Shown here: one piece after another, positions 2,931 to 8,259 of the stretch
Layout of the letters: every line of letters begins with the position of its first letter
Position numbering within the stretch: the first letter of the stretch is position 1
Assembly (NCBI RefSeq): GCF_012290005.1
Contig: NZ_JAAXMS010000003.1
Span: 496,001-560,000, forward strand
Reading direction: 5' to 3'
Source: Crateriforma spongiae
GTDB lineage: Bacteria > Planctomycetota > Planctomycetia > Pirellulales > Pirellulaceae
DNA: 64,000 nt
Notes under the pieces: model-generated
The model's database searches: none
Seen by the model: only the letters and a program-made list of their open reading frames with translations
What the model was told of the DNA's origin: nothing
Program-made: the position numbers and the translations under genes

Positions 2931-3854
2931 TTACTGCAAGCCGATCGTGACCACCGGGGGCGTGACGGCGGGGTGCAGGGCGGAACGGATTTCGTCGGCG
3001 GTGATTTTCCATCCGATGACGGTCAGTCCGTAACGCGGGTTTTTCGCCGTGTAGGGGCGTTCGGTCACGCTGTCAAAAACAGATTCCACCAAGCGGGGAC
3101 CATCACCAAAATTGACGATCCCTTTCATCCTTAATAGCCGGCCCCGGATTTGTTCAACCCCGGTTTGAAACGCCGCTCGGTCAAAATCATGTCCGCTGAT
3201 CGTACAGGCGACTACTTCGGCCGGCGGTGCCTGCAACGGCGCATCTGTGCAGGCAACGTGATGCAAAGATTCAACAAACGGCCAGCCGAAGTGTTTACTG
3301 CCGAATCGGATCTGCTTTGCACGAGGGTTCAAGTCTTTTAACAGCGATGTCAGTTTGCCAACTTGATCGGTGTTCAATCCATCGGACTTGTTGATGACCA
3401 ATCCGTCAGCCCACATCGCCTGGGATGCAACCGCCTTTAACGTTGGCAATACTTTGGTGAAGTTCAACGCGTCGATGACGCAAACGTTGCAGGCGATTTC
3501 AAATCGCTCACGAGTCGCCGGCGTTTCAATGAAGCTGAACAGGTCGCTGGTTTGTGCCATTCCGGTTGCCTCGGTAATCACCAAGTCCGGGCGAACCTGA
3601 TCTGCGATCGCATGCATCGTCGCTTCGAAGTCCGATCGGATGCAGGCGCAAAACAGGCTTCCGCGGTTCAGTTCAAAGACCGTCCCGGCATCATCGGGCA
3701 GTAGTTGCCCGTCGACGCCCAATTCGCCGAATTCATTGATCAGCAATGCGATCCGCTTGGATTTCAACTCGGGGCCGGCCAGCCAATGGTTCAATAGCGT
3801 TGTTTTGCCCGCCCCGAGGCAGCCGGTGATCAAATAGACGGGAATCTTTTTCAT
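2931..3854 (-). CDS. CobW/G3E-family GTPase, putative metallochaperone
   Basis: This 307-residue protein has the P-loop GCLGAGKT at residues 11-18, an INEFG segment near 40, ITEATG in the ExxG position, and NKSD as the G4 motif. These define the G3E P-loop GTPases (CobW/YjiA/ZNG1), which deliver metal ions or assist cobalamin-dependent enzymes. The usual GCxCC metal motif is altered: the local sequence is GSLFCACI, with cysteines 69 and 71. The start ATG at 3854 overlaps the stop of the upstream UroD-thioredoxin gene in an ATGA arrangement, implying translational coupling. An alternative start six codons earlier (3872) is possible. The context suggests zinc or cobalt supply to the neighbouring methyltransferases. 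The exact metal is unknown. Confidence 0.82.
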   Translation of the reverse strand: MKKIPVYLITGCLGAGKTTLLNHWLAGPELKSKRIALLINEFGELGVDGQLLPDDAGTVFELNRGSLFCACIRSDFEATMHAIADQVRPDLVITEATGMAQTSDLFSFIETPATRERFEIACNVCVIDALNFTKVLPTLKAVASQAMWADGLVINKSDGLNTDQVGKLTSLLKDLNPRAKQIRFGSKHFGWPFVESLHHVACTDAPLQAPPAEVVACTISGHDFDRAAFQTGVEQIRGRLLRMKGIVNFGDGPRLVESVFDSVTERPYTAKNPRYGLTVIGWKITADEIRSALHPAVTPPVVTIGLQ

Positions 3855-5503
3855 TGCAGCGATTGAACCCATTGTTTGATCGCCATGCTGTCGGGGACAC
3901 GTTCCGTCGACACGACTTGGTGTCCCGTGGTGACCAACGCCGGCGTTTCATCGGGTTCGACGCCGAATCGAATGAATTCCAGCGGATCGGTCACCAAATG
4001 AACCGAAACGTCGGCGCCGGTTTCAAGCACCGCCTGATCCACCGCATCTTTCATCGCAATGGTGTCGCCGTCATTCTGGCCCAAGACGTGAATTTCACAC
4101 TGACGACGTCGAATGCGAAGTCGTGCTTTCTGATTGATGCGTTTTTGGATCGCGGCGGACAATTCGTCTTTGGGTGGGATCCGCGACACAAATGCGATAT
4201 CGCCGTCGATGCAAATCGTCGGGATGTTTTTGACCGACAAACTGGTCATGAAGCGAATCGCTTCGGGCGTTTTGATTTTGTGTTCACGCCAACGAACGAT
4301 TCCATCAAAATCAGGAGCAATCTTTTCAACGGCTTCCACCATGTACTGACAGGGTGCACATGATTCCGAATCCAATGTGATGATATCGACGATGACATGA
4401 TCGCCCTGCCCATAACCGGACATGTCAGGGATGTCTTGGACATCAGCGCTTTCCGACATGGCCATCACGGCTTCTTGGCGATACGTGTCGCGAACCAGTT
4501 GACCGACCGCTTCCAGGTTTTCCGGCGGGGTCGCATAAGGCAGATCGCATCCGGGGGCCAGCACAAAGCCGGTGTTGTCGCCAACTTTCAAGCATTCCAC
4601 CGCATTCTTTTCAGCGTCTTCGGGGCTGCCCAGCAACAGGACGGTCGTCAATTGCAGATTTCCGCCAAAGCTGGCTTGGTTGTCCCGGCAGGTGTCACGG
4701 ACAAAATCCAGTGGGATGTTTTCGTCGACACACACGTTGTCCGGCCCACACTGACACATCGCTTCGACGTTCTGTTGTGCGTGTCCACAGACGAAGAACG
4801 AACTGAGGCCGCCGGATGTCCGAATCGATTCGAACACAGGTTTGGCATACGGGGTCACAAATTGTTTGAATTGGTCGGGACCGATTTGGCTGGTCATGGG
4901 ATCGACAATGGCGATCACATCACAGCCCGCTTCGATGTAATACCGGCTCATCGCGATCGCGACATCACTGCAGAACTTTAGCAAGCGTTGCACAGATTCC
5001 GGATCGTCAAACATCCGCATGAAAATGTCGGTGCCCTGCAGGTGCAAAGCCAACGTGAATGGGCCGGTCACCAGACCATAAAGTGCGGTGTCCGGATGGT
5101 CCGCACGCAACCGACGGGTGGCGTCCAAGACGATGGGGATGCGGCCTTCGTCCGGGCCGGGAATCTTCAATTGATCCAGGGGCGTGTCCTGGGCCAGCGG
5201 ATGGTCGACAACGGCGGGCGGGGTGTCCGTTGACCAACGCAATTCACAGCCCAACGCCTCGGCTTCGATCTGCAGATCAAACGCCACCGGAATTCCGTCG
5301 GCTTGGTACCGATCGATTGCCAGATTGACGCCACGATGCATCAAGTCGGCGGACTTCAGGTATTCGTCCGCACCGACGCCCATCAAGGCACCGGCGTGGC
5401 ATCCCACAAAGGGAACCCAAGGGGCGCGATCCGTTCGTTGGCCGCTGATCGCAGCATGCACGAGCTCTTTTCCGCCGACCGAAAGATGGGTGCTGGTGCT
5501 CAT
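3851..5503 (-). CDS. UroD/MtaA-type corrinoid methyltransferase fused to two thioredoxin folds
   Basis: The protein has 550 residues from ATG 5503, which is preceded by GAGGGCGAG; an upstream in-frame extension to 5620 lacks such a site. Residues 10-340 are a UroD-family barrel like MtaA/CmuA, enzymes that move methyl groups between corrinoid proteins and thiols or tetrahydrofolate. It keeps APGC near Cys319 and VCG at Cys239, but the His of the usual H-x-C zinc motif is Phe (FFVCGH). Residues 368-455 form a thioredoxin-like domain with C382-A-P-C385 and a cis-proline region NIPT. Residues 468-548 look like a second thioredoxin fold with ETPA but no CxxC pair. The stop overlaps the CobW start. 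It probably transfers or accepts methyl groups with a linked thiol relay; substrate and acceptor are unknown. Confidence 0.8.
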   Translation of the reverse strand: MSTSTHLSVGGKELVHAAISGQRTDRAPWVPFVGCHAGALMGVGADEYLKSADLMHRGVNLAIDRYQADGIPVAFDLQIEAEALGCELRWSTDTPPAVVDHPLAQDTPLDQLKIPGPDEGRIPIVLDATRRLRADHPDTALYGLVTGPFTLALHLQGTDIFMRMFDDPESVQRLLKFCSDVAIAMSRYYIEAGCDVIAIVDPMTSQIGPDQFKQFVTPYAKPVFESIRTSGGLSSFFVCGHAQQNVEAMCQCGPDNVCVDENIPLDFVRDTCRDNQASFGGNLQLTTVLLLGSPEDAEKNAVECLKVGDNTGFVLAPGCDLPYATPPENLEAVGQLVRDTYRQEAVMAMSESADVQDIPDMSGYGQGDHVIVDIITLDSESCAPCQYMVEAVEKIAPDFDGIVRWREHKIKTPEAIRFMTSLSVKNIPTICIDGDIAFVSRIPPKDELSAAIQKRINQKARLRIRRRQCEIHVLGQNDGDTIAMKDAVDQAVLETGADVSVHLVTDPLEFIRFGVEPDETPALVTTGHQVVSTERVPDSMAIKQWVQSLQ

Positions 5504-5707: not shown

Positions 5708-6427
5708 TCAGCGTCGCATGTTGCAGTTCTTCAACTCGCAACGATCACACGGCGTGCCTTCGATGCGGACCGATTCGCTTGGCCCCAATCCGACGAGTCC
5801 CGACACCGACTTGATGGGCGTCATCAAACAGCTTTCGTGAAGTTGGACACCCGCGGTCTGGTTGCCGAAGATCGAAAACAGTTTTTGTTGTTCGGTCAAC
5901 TTCATGCCGCAGTAACCGGGACTGTAGGGCAACGTGGCGGCGAAGCCGATGTCGCCGACGGGATCGCAAGCCCTGCGAACGGCTTCGGTCTCCGCTGCTT
6001 CGGCTCGTTCGGCACCCACCGAATTGACGATCAAAGTGGCCAGGTCGTCGCCCTGTGTCAAAAGGTCGCTGGCGAGTTCAACGATGCGGGGGCCGGCTGT
6101 CGCGATGAAGGCGACGATCAATTCCGACACTCCGAGAAAGCTGCCGATCGCACCCGAAAATTCGATCTTGCCGGTCGACGTGTCGACGATCAACGAACGC
6201 TTGTCTTTGTGAATGACCGGCAGAACGACATAGACCGCGCAAGGCGACGCGGCCTGTTCGGCTTGGTCGATCCAGTGTTCCAGCATCTCCGCGACCGAAC
6301 CGCTTGGCGTGTACCCGGCGGGATAGCCCAAGTAACGCAAGACTTCGGCAACGTCGATCGGTTCGTCGACTTGGGCCACCGTCACCGGTTCCATCTGTAG
6401 GAAACGGTGTGGCGATTTGACACTCAT
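5708..6427 (-). CDS. Free-standing methionine-synthase-type (MetH) reactivation domain protein
   Basis: This 239-residue protein resembles the AdoMet-binding activation domain found at the C terminus of cobalamin-dependent methionine synthase, notably YSPGYCGMKLTEQQKLFSIF in the position of the MetH segment that binds AdoMet. In MetH this domain reductively re-methylates inactive cob(II)alamin. A separate subunit of this kind is known in Thermotoga maritima. The C terminus carries a cysteine cluster, CDRCELKNC, which could bind a metal or iron-sulfur centre. The start ATG 6427 has AGGA eight bases upstream; 6472 is a less likely alternative. It is divergent from the corrinoid protein gene at 6546, so the two probably share a 118-bp promoter region. 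The likely role is reactivating that corrinoid protein. Confidence 0.78.
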   Translation of the reverse strand: MSVKSPHRFLQMEPVTVAQVDEPIDVAEVLRYLGYPAGYTPSGSVAEMLEHWIDQAEQAASPCAVYVVLPVIHKDKRSLIVDTSTGKIEFSGAIGSFLGVSELIVAFIATAGPRIVELASDLLTQGDDLATLIVNSVGAERAEAAETEAVRRACDPVGDIGFAATLPYSPGYCGMKLTEQQKLFSIFGNQTAGVQLHESCLMTPIKSVSGLVGLGPSESVRIEGTPCDRCELKNCNMRR

Positions 6428-6545
6428 CCCATGGTCCTGGCGATCAATGTTACGTAGGGAGAACGACGACATGCTATGTTAACAATCCGACGCGGTCATG
6501 CAGTGAACCTCACCGAGAAACGCAAGCAGGTCGAAGGAAGTTTTG
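6428..6545. promoter_or_regulatory. Divergent intergenic region of the corrinoid module
   Basis: This 118-bp gap separates the divergent starts of the reactivation protein and the corrinoid protein and must hold promoters for both. It contains an AT-richer patch, GCTATGTTAACAAT, at about 6473-6486 and an AGGAAG ribosome-binding site just before ATG 6546. I see no B12-box or other cobalamin-riboswitch hallmark here. Confidence 0.45.
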
Positions 6546-7196
6546 ATGTCTGAATCTGGTGCAAACGGCAGCCCATTGTACGAAGCCATTTTGACCGGCG
6601 ACGCCGACGGCAGCGTCAAGTTGACGCAGGCCGCATTGGCCGACGGCGTCGATCCCAATGACTTGATCAACCAAGACATGATCCCGGCGATGGACGAAGC
6701 GGGGCGGCGATTTGAGAAGCGTGAGTTTTATGTCCCTGAACTATTGATCGCCGCGCGAGCGATGAAGGGGGCGCTGGCATTGATTCGGCCGCTGTTGTCC
6801 GAACGTGGCGTCGAACCGGTTGGTCGTGTGGTCATCGGCACCGTCAAAGGCGACTTGCATGACATCGGCAAAGGCTTGGTCGGTTCGATGCTGGAAGGCG
6901 GTGGTTTCGAAGTGTTCGATTTGGGCGTCGACGTTGCGGCGGAGGCTTTCATTTCCAAAGCCGTTGAACAGAAAGCGGATGTCGTCGCGGTATCAGCATT
7001 GCTGACGACCACCATGACGCAGATGAAGGATGTGGTCAGTGCGCTGCGTGATTCCGACATCAGCCAGACGTGCAAGATCATCGTGGGTGGTGCACCGGTG
7101 ACCCAACAGTTTGCCGATTCCATCGGCGCCGACGGCTACAGCGAAAACGCCAGTGCCGCCGTGACGCTGGTTCGATCGATCGTCACGCCGGCGTAG
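6546..7196 (+). CDS. Corrinoid-binding methyltransferase protein (MtaC/MtbC/MtmC type)
   Basis: The 216-residue protein has two domains. Residues 1-88 are the helical cap, including RRFEKREFYVPELLIAARAM. Residues 92-216 are the B12-binding Rossmann domain with G-D103-L-H105-D-I-G, where His105 is the lower cobalt ligand, then VSALLTTT at 149-156 and VGGAPVT at 180-186. This is the standard small corrinoid carrier that shuttles a methyl group between a substrate-specific methyltransferase and a UroD-type one. ATG 6546 is chosen over TTG 6543 because GAAGGAAG lies at the right distance. Its 3' end overlaps the convergent UroD-like gene by 14 bp. No substrate-specific MtxB-type methyltransferase gene is present nearby. 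Confidence 0.92.
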   Translation: MSESGANGSPLYEAILTGDADGSVKLTQAALADGVDPNDLINQDMIPAMDEAGRRFEKREFYVPELLIAARAMKGALALIRPLLSERGVEPVGRVVIGTVKGDLHDIGKGLVGSMLEGGGFEVFDLGVDVAAEAFISKAVEQKADVVAVSALLTTTMTQMKDVVSALRDSDISQTCKIIVGGAPVTQQFADSIGADGYSENASAAVTLVRSIVTPA

Positions 7197-8259
7197 CTTC
7201 GCCGGCGGTCGGATGAGTGCTTCGGGCGATGCGAACCATCGCTTGTAAGTTTTCAATCGGCGTGTCGCGGGGAACAATGCATCCGGATCCCAAGATGAAG
7301 TGATTGCCGCCGCCGACGCTGTCGATGCAACGCCGGGATGCTTCTTCGACGCTTTTGGGTGTGCCCTGCAGCAAATCGTTGATCGTGTGCACGTTTCCCA
7401 TCAACGCGACCCGGTCGCCGACGATTTCTTTGGCGACGGACAGGTCCACCATATTGTCAACTTCGACGATCGCGGCACCCGATTTGGCATACATGTCCAG
7501 CACTCGCGTGCTGTCACCACAAATGTGAAGCAGGCTTCCTGTGATGCCATGATCCTGCCAGGCTTGGAAGACCTTTTGCTCGTATGGCAGCGCGAACCGT
7601 TCGTACGTCGATGGCGAAATCATGTCGCATGATGCCAGCGAATCACCGCAGTGAATGATGTCAGCACCGGCGTCCCAGCATGCTTTGCCGAACCGAATCA
7701 AGGATTCAGCAGCCACGTCCAGCGCGTGGCGAATCGCGTCCTCGGTTCCCTCGGTCAATCCGGCTTCCAGCATGCCGACTTCGTACAGCCAAGTTTGCGA
7801 TCCGATCAAGTACGATGCCAACGCGAAGGGCCCAGTCCCCGGCGATCGAATCGCCACAGAATCACCCACCGCGTCGCGAACTTGTTTGATGGCGTCGATC
7901 ATGACCGGCATCCGGCCGTCTTGGTACGGATCAAGCGGTTCGATCCTGAACACTTCGTCCAGCGTCTTGGCAGGCGATTCGGTGATCGCCGGCAGTTCAT
8001 CGCGTTCGCGCGTGGTCTTGCAACCAAAGCCTTCGGCGATGTAGCAGTTGTCCGCGCCGACCGCGATCACATCTTGATCCAGCGCTTCGTGCAAAGCCAA
8101 TTGGGCTTTGGTCATCACGTCGGCGTTGGTGTAGAAATCGCGCAACACAACGCCTGAAAATGCGACCGCAACGTCGTACATGTAGGGGCCAACGGCAACG
8201 CAATCCGTTGCCTGACCGCGAATCGAATTTTGAATCCGTTGGCGGGACGTCAATTCCAT
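7183..8259 (-). CDS. UroD/MtaA-family methyltransferase
   Basis: The 358-residue protein is a complete UroD-type barrel with the zinc-site pattern of MtaA-like methyltransferases: His245-I-C247-G-D in LHICGD and Cys327 in LGSGC. It also has the conserved DTPIENLQAM close. In that family zinc activates a thiol or other nucleophile that takes methyl from a methyl-corrinoid protein. Haem-type uroporphyrinogen decarboxylase is less likely because those proteins lack this H-x-C...C set and because of the neighbouring corrinoid protein. ATG 8259 has AGGA four bases upstream. Unlike the fused UroD protein in the same cluster, this one retains the full zinc motif, so the two may be donor- and acceptor-side enzymes. 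Confidence 0.88.
   Translation of the reverse strand: MELTSRQRIQNSIRGQATDCVAVGPYMYDVAVAFSGVVLRDFYTNADVMTKAQLALHEALDQDVIAVGADNCYIAEGFGCKTTRERDELPAITESPAKTLDEVFRIEPLDPYQDGRMPVMIDAIKQVRDAVGDSVAIRSPGTGPFALASYLIGSQTWLYEVGMLEAGLTEGTEDAIRHALDVAAESLIRFGKACWDAGADIIHCGDSLASCDMISPSTYERFALPYEQKVFQAWQDHGITGSLLHICGDSTRVLDMYAKSGAAIVEVDNMVDLSVAKEIVGDRVALMGNVHTINDLLQGTPKSVEEASRRCIDSVGGGNHFILGSGCIVPRDTPIENLQAMVRIARSTHPTAGEATPA

Follow-up and report, generated by a model that had tools for sequence, protein, structure and literature searches.

Genes and domains at the locus

The window, meaning the whole stretch of 64,000 nucleotides analysed, carries on its minus strand a 550-residue protein, UROT, in which a UroD/MtaA-type barrel is followed by two thioredoxin folds. 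The open reading frame starts with ATG at 5503, ends with a stop at 3851-3853 and contains zero internal stops. The fusion gene and that of a COG0523 GTPase share 22 bp, and upstream lie genes for a MetH-type activation protein, a divergently oriented corrinoid protein and a second UroD enzyme. The features of this region are as follows:

2931..3872, minus strand: COG0523/CobW-family G3E GTPase (cobW E 1.1e-36, with CobW_C)
3642..3662, minus strand: GSLFCAC motif of the GTPase, at the place of GCxCC in canonical members (motif alignment)
3851..5503, minus strand: UROT, a UroD-thioredoxin-thioredoxin fusion of 550 aa (intact ORF, Pfam/NCBIfam matches and fold)
3857..4102, minus strand: second thioredoxin fold, residues 468-549, with no CxxC (weak TIGR00412 match and fold)
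4139..4402, minus strand: first thioredoxin domain, residues 368-455, with cis-Pro P428 and C431 (Thioredoxin_3 and fold)
4349..4360, minus strand: C382-A-P-C385 redox motif (both Cys in 88/88 aligned rows)
4490..5470, minus strand: UroD/MtaA-type barrel, residues 12-338 (Pfam URO-D E 6.7e-63)
4547..4558, minus strand: A-P-G-C319, predicted second metal-site cysteine (C319 invariant)
4721..4723, minus strand: E261, aligned with a Glu of MtaA (alignment, invariant)
4781..4795, minus strand: F237-V-C239-G-H241, replacing the His-x-Cys metal motif (alignment)
5708..6472, minus strand: stand-alone protein with a MetH-type activation domain and CX2CX4C at its C terminus (Met_synt_B12 E 1.3e-09)
6543..7196, plus strand: B12-binding corrinoid protein, MtgC/MtbC-like (PF02310 E 4.3e-26, PF02607 E 2e-20, NCBIfam)
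7183..8259, minus strand: second MtaA-like UroD methyltransferase with intact HIC...GSGC, i.e. His-Cys-Cys (URO-D E 6.5e-66)

The barrel scores 213.2 bits against PF01208 (cut-off 23.9) and 184.8 bits against TIGR01463 (MtaA/CmuA), below the curated cut-off of 235.4; judged by these profile scores, the fusion belongs to the UroD superfamily but falls outside the MtaA/CmuA family as curated. The first-pass annotation had placed a UroD/MtaA barrel at about residues 10-340, a CAPC thioredoxin behind it and a second thioredoxin fold devoid of the cysteine pair. Each of these domains is recovered: the barrel by Pfam URO-D at 12-338, the first thioredoxin by Thioredoxin_3 (PF13192) at 379-452 (E 2.4e-11, 43.9 bits, cut-off 24.8) with C382 and C385 at the residues named, and the second fold by a below-cut-off match to MTH895/ArsE-type thioredoxins at 471-547 (NCBIfam TIGR00412), together with its strand and helix order in the AlphaFold model. 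The segment FFVCGH, with Phe for His, as well as C239 and the APGC of C319, also lie where they had been claimed. The first tail domain has the fold, CxxC and cis-Pro of a thioredoxin, and the second lacks CxxC in the window protein.

AlphaFold, run on an alignment of 55 sequences, models the full chain with a mean pLDDT of 88.7 as a barrel followed by two domains of thioredoxin order, with a low-confidence linker at about residues 351-360. MtaA is the methylcobamide:CoM methyltransferase, i.e. a methyl-corrinoid:thiol transferase. The barrel finds its best solved match in Methanosarcina mazei MtaA 4ay7 (VIA-align Z 42.9, rmsd 1.8 over 325 residues), and the next protein reaches Z 36.9. With the UroD barrel of MtaA (PDB 4ay7/4ay8) the fusion shares 26-27% identity and retains the two cysteines and the Glu of the metal site; it differs from MtaA in having Phe (F237) for the His of His-x-Cys and in being joined to one or two thioredoxin folds. 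Unlike for MtaA, a role for coenzyme M would not be expected in these bacteria. Because VIA-align of the whole model returns essentially barrel matches, the tail was folded separately; modelled alone, it has a mean pLDDT of 90.7, and its strands and helices follow the order found in thioredoxins. Its first domain matches thioredoxins with Z up to 11.7. The top Foldseek match of the tail is the Pyrococcus furiosus protein disulfide oxidoreductase 1a8l (E 1.3e-05), which likewise consists of tandem thioredoxin folds; the fusion tail differs from it in relative domain orientation (rmsd 19.8) and in carrying a CxxC pair in just one of its two folds.

Spread and conservation of the family

A scan of species genomes yielded at least 558 relatives among at least 593 matched stretches, the best 80 of which were kept (52-66% identity). 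These best 80 span roughly a dozen phyla: Planctomycetota, Bacteroidota, Lentisphaerota, Spirochaetota, Chlamydiota, Fibrobacterota, Calditrichota, KSB1, Neomarinimicrobiota and SAR324, plus one Clostridiales bin. The spread is patchy: in the order to which Mariniphaga anaerophila belongs, 10 of 198 genomes have a member; in the window organism's own taxonomic family, the thioredoxin domain occurs in the window genome only, among four genomes searched. Fusion genes at two loci on fragmentary contigs are broken by an in-frame stop (L051, about 926-928, and L006), probably through assembly errors or decay.

The alignment examined for conservation has 88 rows, comprising the window and 87 loci, one of these being the window's own locus. 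Invariant throughout are F237, V238, C239, G240, E261 and C319 in the barrel, and C382, C385, E407, H408, cis-Pro P428 and C431 in the first thioredoxin. The metal site had been described beforehand as altered, and the alteration, Phe for His with both cysteines and the Glu kept, is fixed across the whole family. H241 is His in 78 rows and Asp, Tyr or Gln in the other 10, and additional one-thioredoxin forms have Asn, Tyr or Phe at this position. As a general substitute for the missing ligand H241 is unlikely, given the 10 of 88 rows in which it is not His.

Every FxC barrel protein seen carries the first thioredoxin, and the second is optional: it is wholly absent from some relatives, and among the 82 having that domain CxxC is kept in six. 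In a tree built by a quick method, the FxC barrels form a single branch (98% SH-aLRT) separate from other UroD proteins and containing one- and two-thioredoxin forms alike. The one-thioredoxin forms come from planctomycetes, Bacteroidales and one Subdoligranulum record. No stand-alone thioredoxin of the fusion type was found in planctomycetes, all eight matches being part of long open frames, as would fit the fusion.

The Subdoligranulum record (OY725850.1, L137, 25.8 kb, unannotated) encodes a one-thioredoxin relative of 42% identity in which FVCG persists in the barrel, the redox motif reads CAAC and C431 is replaced; the motif of its GTPase is GSIFCAC. In the same record a radical SAM gene lies between the relative and the GTPase, another UroD lies close by, and there is an AraC-like ORF. 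The family is a real, widespread bacterial enzyme type, apparently one with no prior characterisation.

The gene cassette and its GTPase

Neighbours were counted within 5 kb at 46 loci having at least 3.5 kb on both sides. A G3E GTPase is present at 41 of them, a corrinoid protein at 33, a homocysteine methyltransferase (PF02574) at 24, another UroD at 17 and a MetH-activation protein at 15. The usual cassette consists of a corrinoid protein, the UroD-thioredoxin fusion and the GTPase, frequently joined by a MetH-type reactivation protein and by other UroD methyltransferases. The homocysteine methyltransferase belongs mostly to Bacteroidota, whose gene order is, with variations, corrinoid protein, sometimes a UroD, UROT, homocysteine methyltransferase, GTPase and MetH-activation protein. 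Most one-thioredoxin Bacteroidales clusters read UroD, corrinoid protein, UROT, GTPase and MetH-activation protein, which are the five genes of the window. Every readable copy of the motif in the neighbouring UroD proteins retains the His, and the rest of the site varies; the Phe is therefore particular to the fused enzyme.

All MetH-type activation proteins compared among cluster members end in CX2CX4C, which might hold a metal or an Fe-S cluster for reductive activation. A (R)YSPGYC-type segment is also common to the stand-alone proteins of this kind compared. One Bacteroidota cluster has a RACo-type corrinoid reductive activator after the MetH-activation gene (L100, 6428-7912), and succinate dehydrogenase/fumarate reductase genes lie directly 3' of the cassette at several Prolixibacteraceae loci (L084, L087, L082). 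As clues to a substrate, the operon neighbours show no common theme; among them are AraC regulators, fumarate reductase subunits, rhamnose genes, MFS/MatE transporters and peptidases.

The GTPase has both its nucleotide-binding and its C-terminal domain (PF02492 and PF07683, above cut-off) and lies within 5 kb of the fusion in 62 of the 68 loci having at least 2.5 kb downstream. All 72 cluster GTPases aligned have GSxFCxC and lack CXCC; the window genome also encodes two paralogues, one with GCICC and one with GCACC. By this motif, the cluster GTPases may be a separate metallochaperone subfamily. The neighbouring genes and the changed GTPase motif go beyond what the first-pass annotation had described.

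A search for stand-alone pterin methyltransferases gave no match in the window genome or in 12 others. The window genome and 11 of those 12 encode full MetH; ordinary methionine synthesis thus does not depend on the cassette, which is an extra route for methyl groups.

Proposed function and comparison with known systems

Architecture, fold, invariance and gene neighbours are consistent with a corrinoid methyl-transfer system, for which the metal, the direction of transfer, the thiol substrate and the role of the thioredoxin are proposed below. At a probability of roughly 45%, the fusion would be the constant thiol-handling methyltransferase of such a system, with a GTPase-loaded metal and a tethered thioredoxin dithiol. 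The MtaA-like barrel, the fixed residues, the neighbour counts and the altered GTPase motif speak in favour of this reading. Counting against it are the sub-cut-off score with TIGR01463, the six of 68 loci with enough downstream sequence at which no GTPase lies nearby, and the window genome, which has full MetH only and no stand-alone homocysteine methyltransferase.

In the proposed scheme, the second UroD enzyme would move a methyl group onto or off the corrinoid protein, and in clusters with no second UroD this exchange would fall to the fusion itself. The MetH-type protein would re-methylate oxidised corrinoid using SAM. The final methyl acceptor would be a thiol and not folate, presumably homocysteine in those clusters that encode a homocysteine methyltransferase; that the methyl probably goes to a thiol follows from the lack of a stand-alone pterin methyltransferase in the 13 genomes. 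A metal is likely still bound, because C239, C319 and E261 are invariant; these three residues would hold it, leaving a position open where MtaA has its His. The adjacent COG0523 GTPase would load this metal, specific loading being suggested by a GTPase dedicated to the fusion. The CAPC thioredoxin would provide dithiol chemistry at the site of methyl transfer, its simplest role being to keep the substrate thiol, the two metal-site cysteines or both reduced. The built-in thiol relay suggested by the first-pass annotation is plausible; it is less likely that the thioredoxin accepts the methyl group or donates electrons for activating the corrinoid.

The last of these roles belongs to a reading in which the fusion is not a methyltransferase but a repair or activation subunit: it would take electrons from thioredoxin reductase and hand them on either to corrinoid protein that has become oxidised or to a disulfide between C239 and C319. 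The loss of the His ligand, the invariant thioredoxin and the position of the fusion as constant partner of varied UroD enzymes all agree with such reductive maintenance. However, E261 and the remaining barrel active site are conserved, Co(II) is poorly reduced by a dithiol, and the clusters often contain a MetH-activation protein with its own CX2CX4C, with a RACo-type activator also present in one tested cluster. We regard this reading as rather unlikely.

Somewhat less probable still is a role in methyl-selenium/methyl-sulfur recycling of the "type 1 mlp gene cluster" kind (Kountz and Balskus, PMC10418091). Several MtaA-like proteins occur with a corrinoid protein, no stand-alone folate methyltransferase was found, the second UroD of the window has an S-type His-Cys-Cys site, and SelD is above cut-off in 8 of 13 genomes. 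Against it, there is no Ram-type activase, the fusion departs from the His-Cys-Cys rule given for those clusters, and PMC10418091 mentions neither a thioredoxin fusion nor the GTPase. In the window genome SelD is below cut-off (best 45 bits, cut-off 125), so a selenium role in this organism is not supported.

It is improbable that a cysteine of CAPC replaces coenzyme M, with the barrel methylating or demethylating its own thioredoxin, which would carry the methyl group. The free coordination position left by the missing His, the MtaA-like barrel, the thioredoxin fused in every FxC relative seen and the low-confidence linker at about 351-360, suggestive of a mobile arm in the model, would suit this arrangement; a Cys thioether is hard to turn over, however, and the retention of both CxxC cysteines fits redox chemistry better than a single acceptor. 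An equally doubtful variant makes the tethered thioredoxin the thiol substrate or the third ligand, in a self-contained methyl-corrinoid:protein-thiol methyltransferase whose non-zinc or open site would be installed by the co-altered metallochaperone. A sequencing artefact or chance joining of two genes, the frameshift that would have undone the original claim of a fusion, can be dismissed in view of about 90 full-length homologues from many phyla, including the Subdoligranulum relative at 42% identity.

Among UroD-type corrinoid methyltransferases, which are described as zinc enzymes, this family stands out by having both cysteines and no His, with a thioredoxin always in cis and with the GTPase motif changed as well. 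Hundreds of genomes carry it, mostly known from sediment and marine bacteria but also from at least one gut-type Firmicute. The wide occurrence, altered site and altered GTPase together point to an undescribed B12-dependent methyl pathway, probably of methyl-sulfur, and the cassette would be a clean system in which to learn what decides the client and the metal of a COG0523 protein. The first reading of the sequence knew of no described enzyme of this architecture, and no characterised one was found in the literature searched (many subscription papers lie outside it), in NCBIfam or among PDB sequences; no NCBIfam model claims the fusion above cut-off, and no solved structure matched by sequence spans the whole architecture.

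Among the known systems, UroD-superfamily S-methyltransferases use His-Cys-Cys, and O-methyltransferases replace Cys with carboxylate or non-coordinating residues (PMC10418091); having lost the His and kept both cysteines, the fusion fits neither pattern. Like a type 1 mlp cluster, the window has at least two MtaA-like proteins and a corrinoid protein; unlike it, the window has a MetH-type activation domain instead of Ram, a corrinoid gene on the plus strand with the others on the minus strand instead of genes in one direction, an added COG0523 GTPase and thioredoxin fusion, and a broken His-Cys-Cys. The locus is thus outside type 1 mlp clusters as defined (PMC10418091). The separate corrinoid, homocysteine-methyltransferase and reactivation proteins of the split methionine synthase/MtgBCDE (PMC12478193) recur in many relatives' operons, whose cassettes differ in having UroD enzymes instead of the pterin module; in the window genome neither the homocysteine nor the pterin module stands alone. 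The closest likeness for the GTPase, drawn from gene neighbourhood, is to COG0523 subfamily 13, which adjoins corrinoid methyltransferase genes in methanogens and, as here, places the GTPase beside MtaA-like and corrinoid genes; the partner GTPase carries GSxFCxC, in contrast to the CXCC stated to be conserved in all COG0523 members (PMC2770081).
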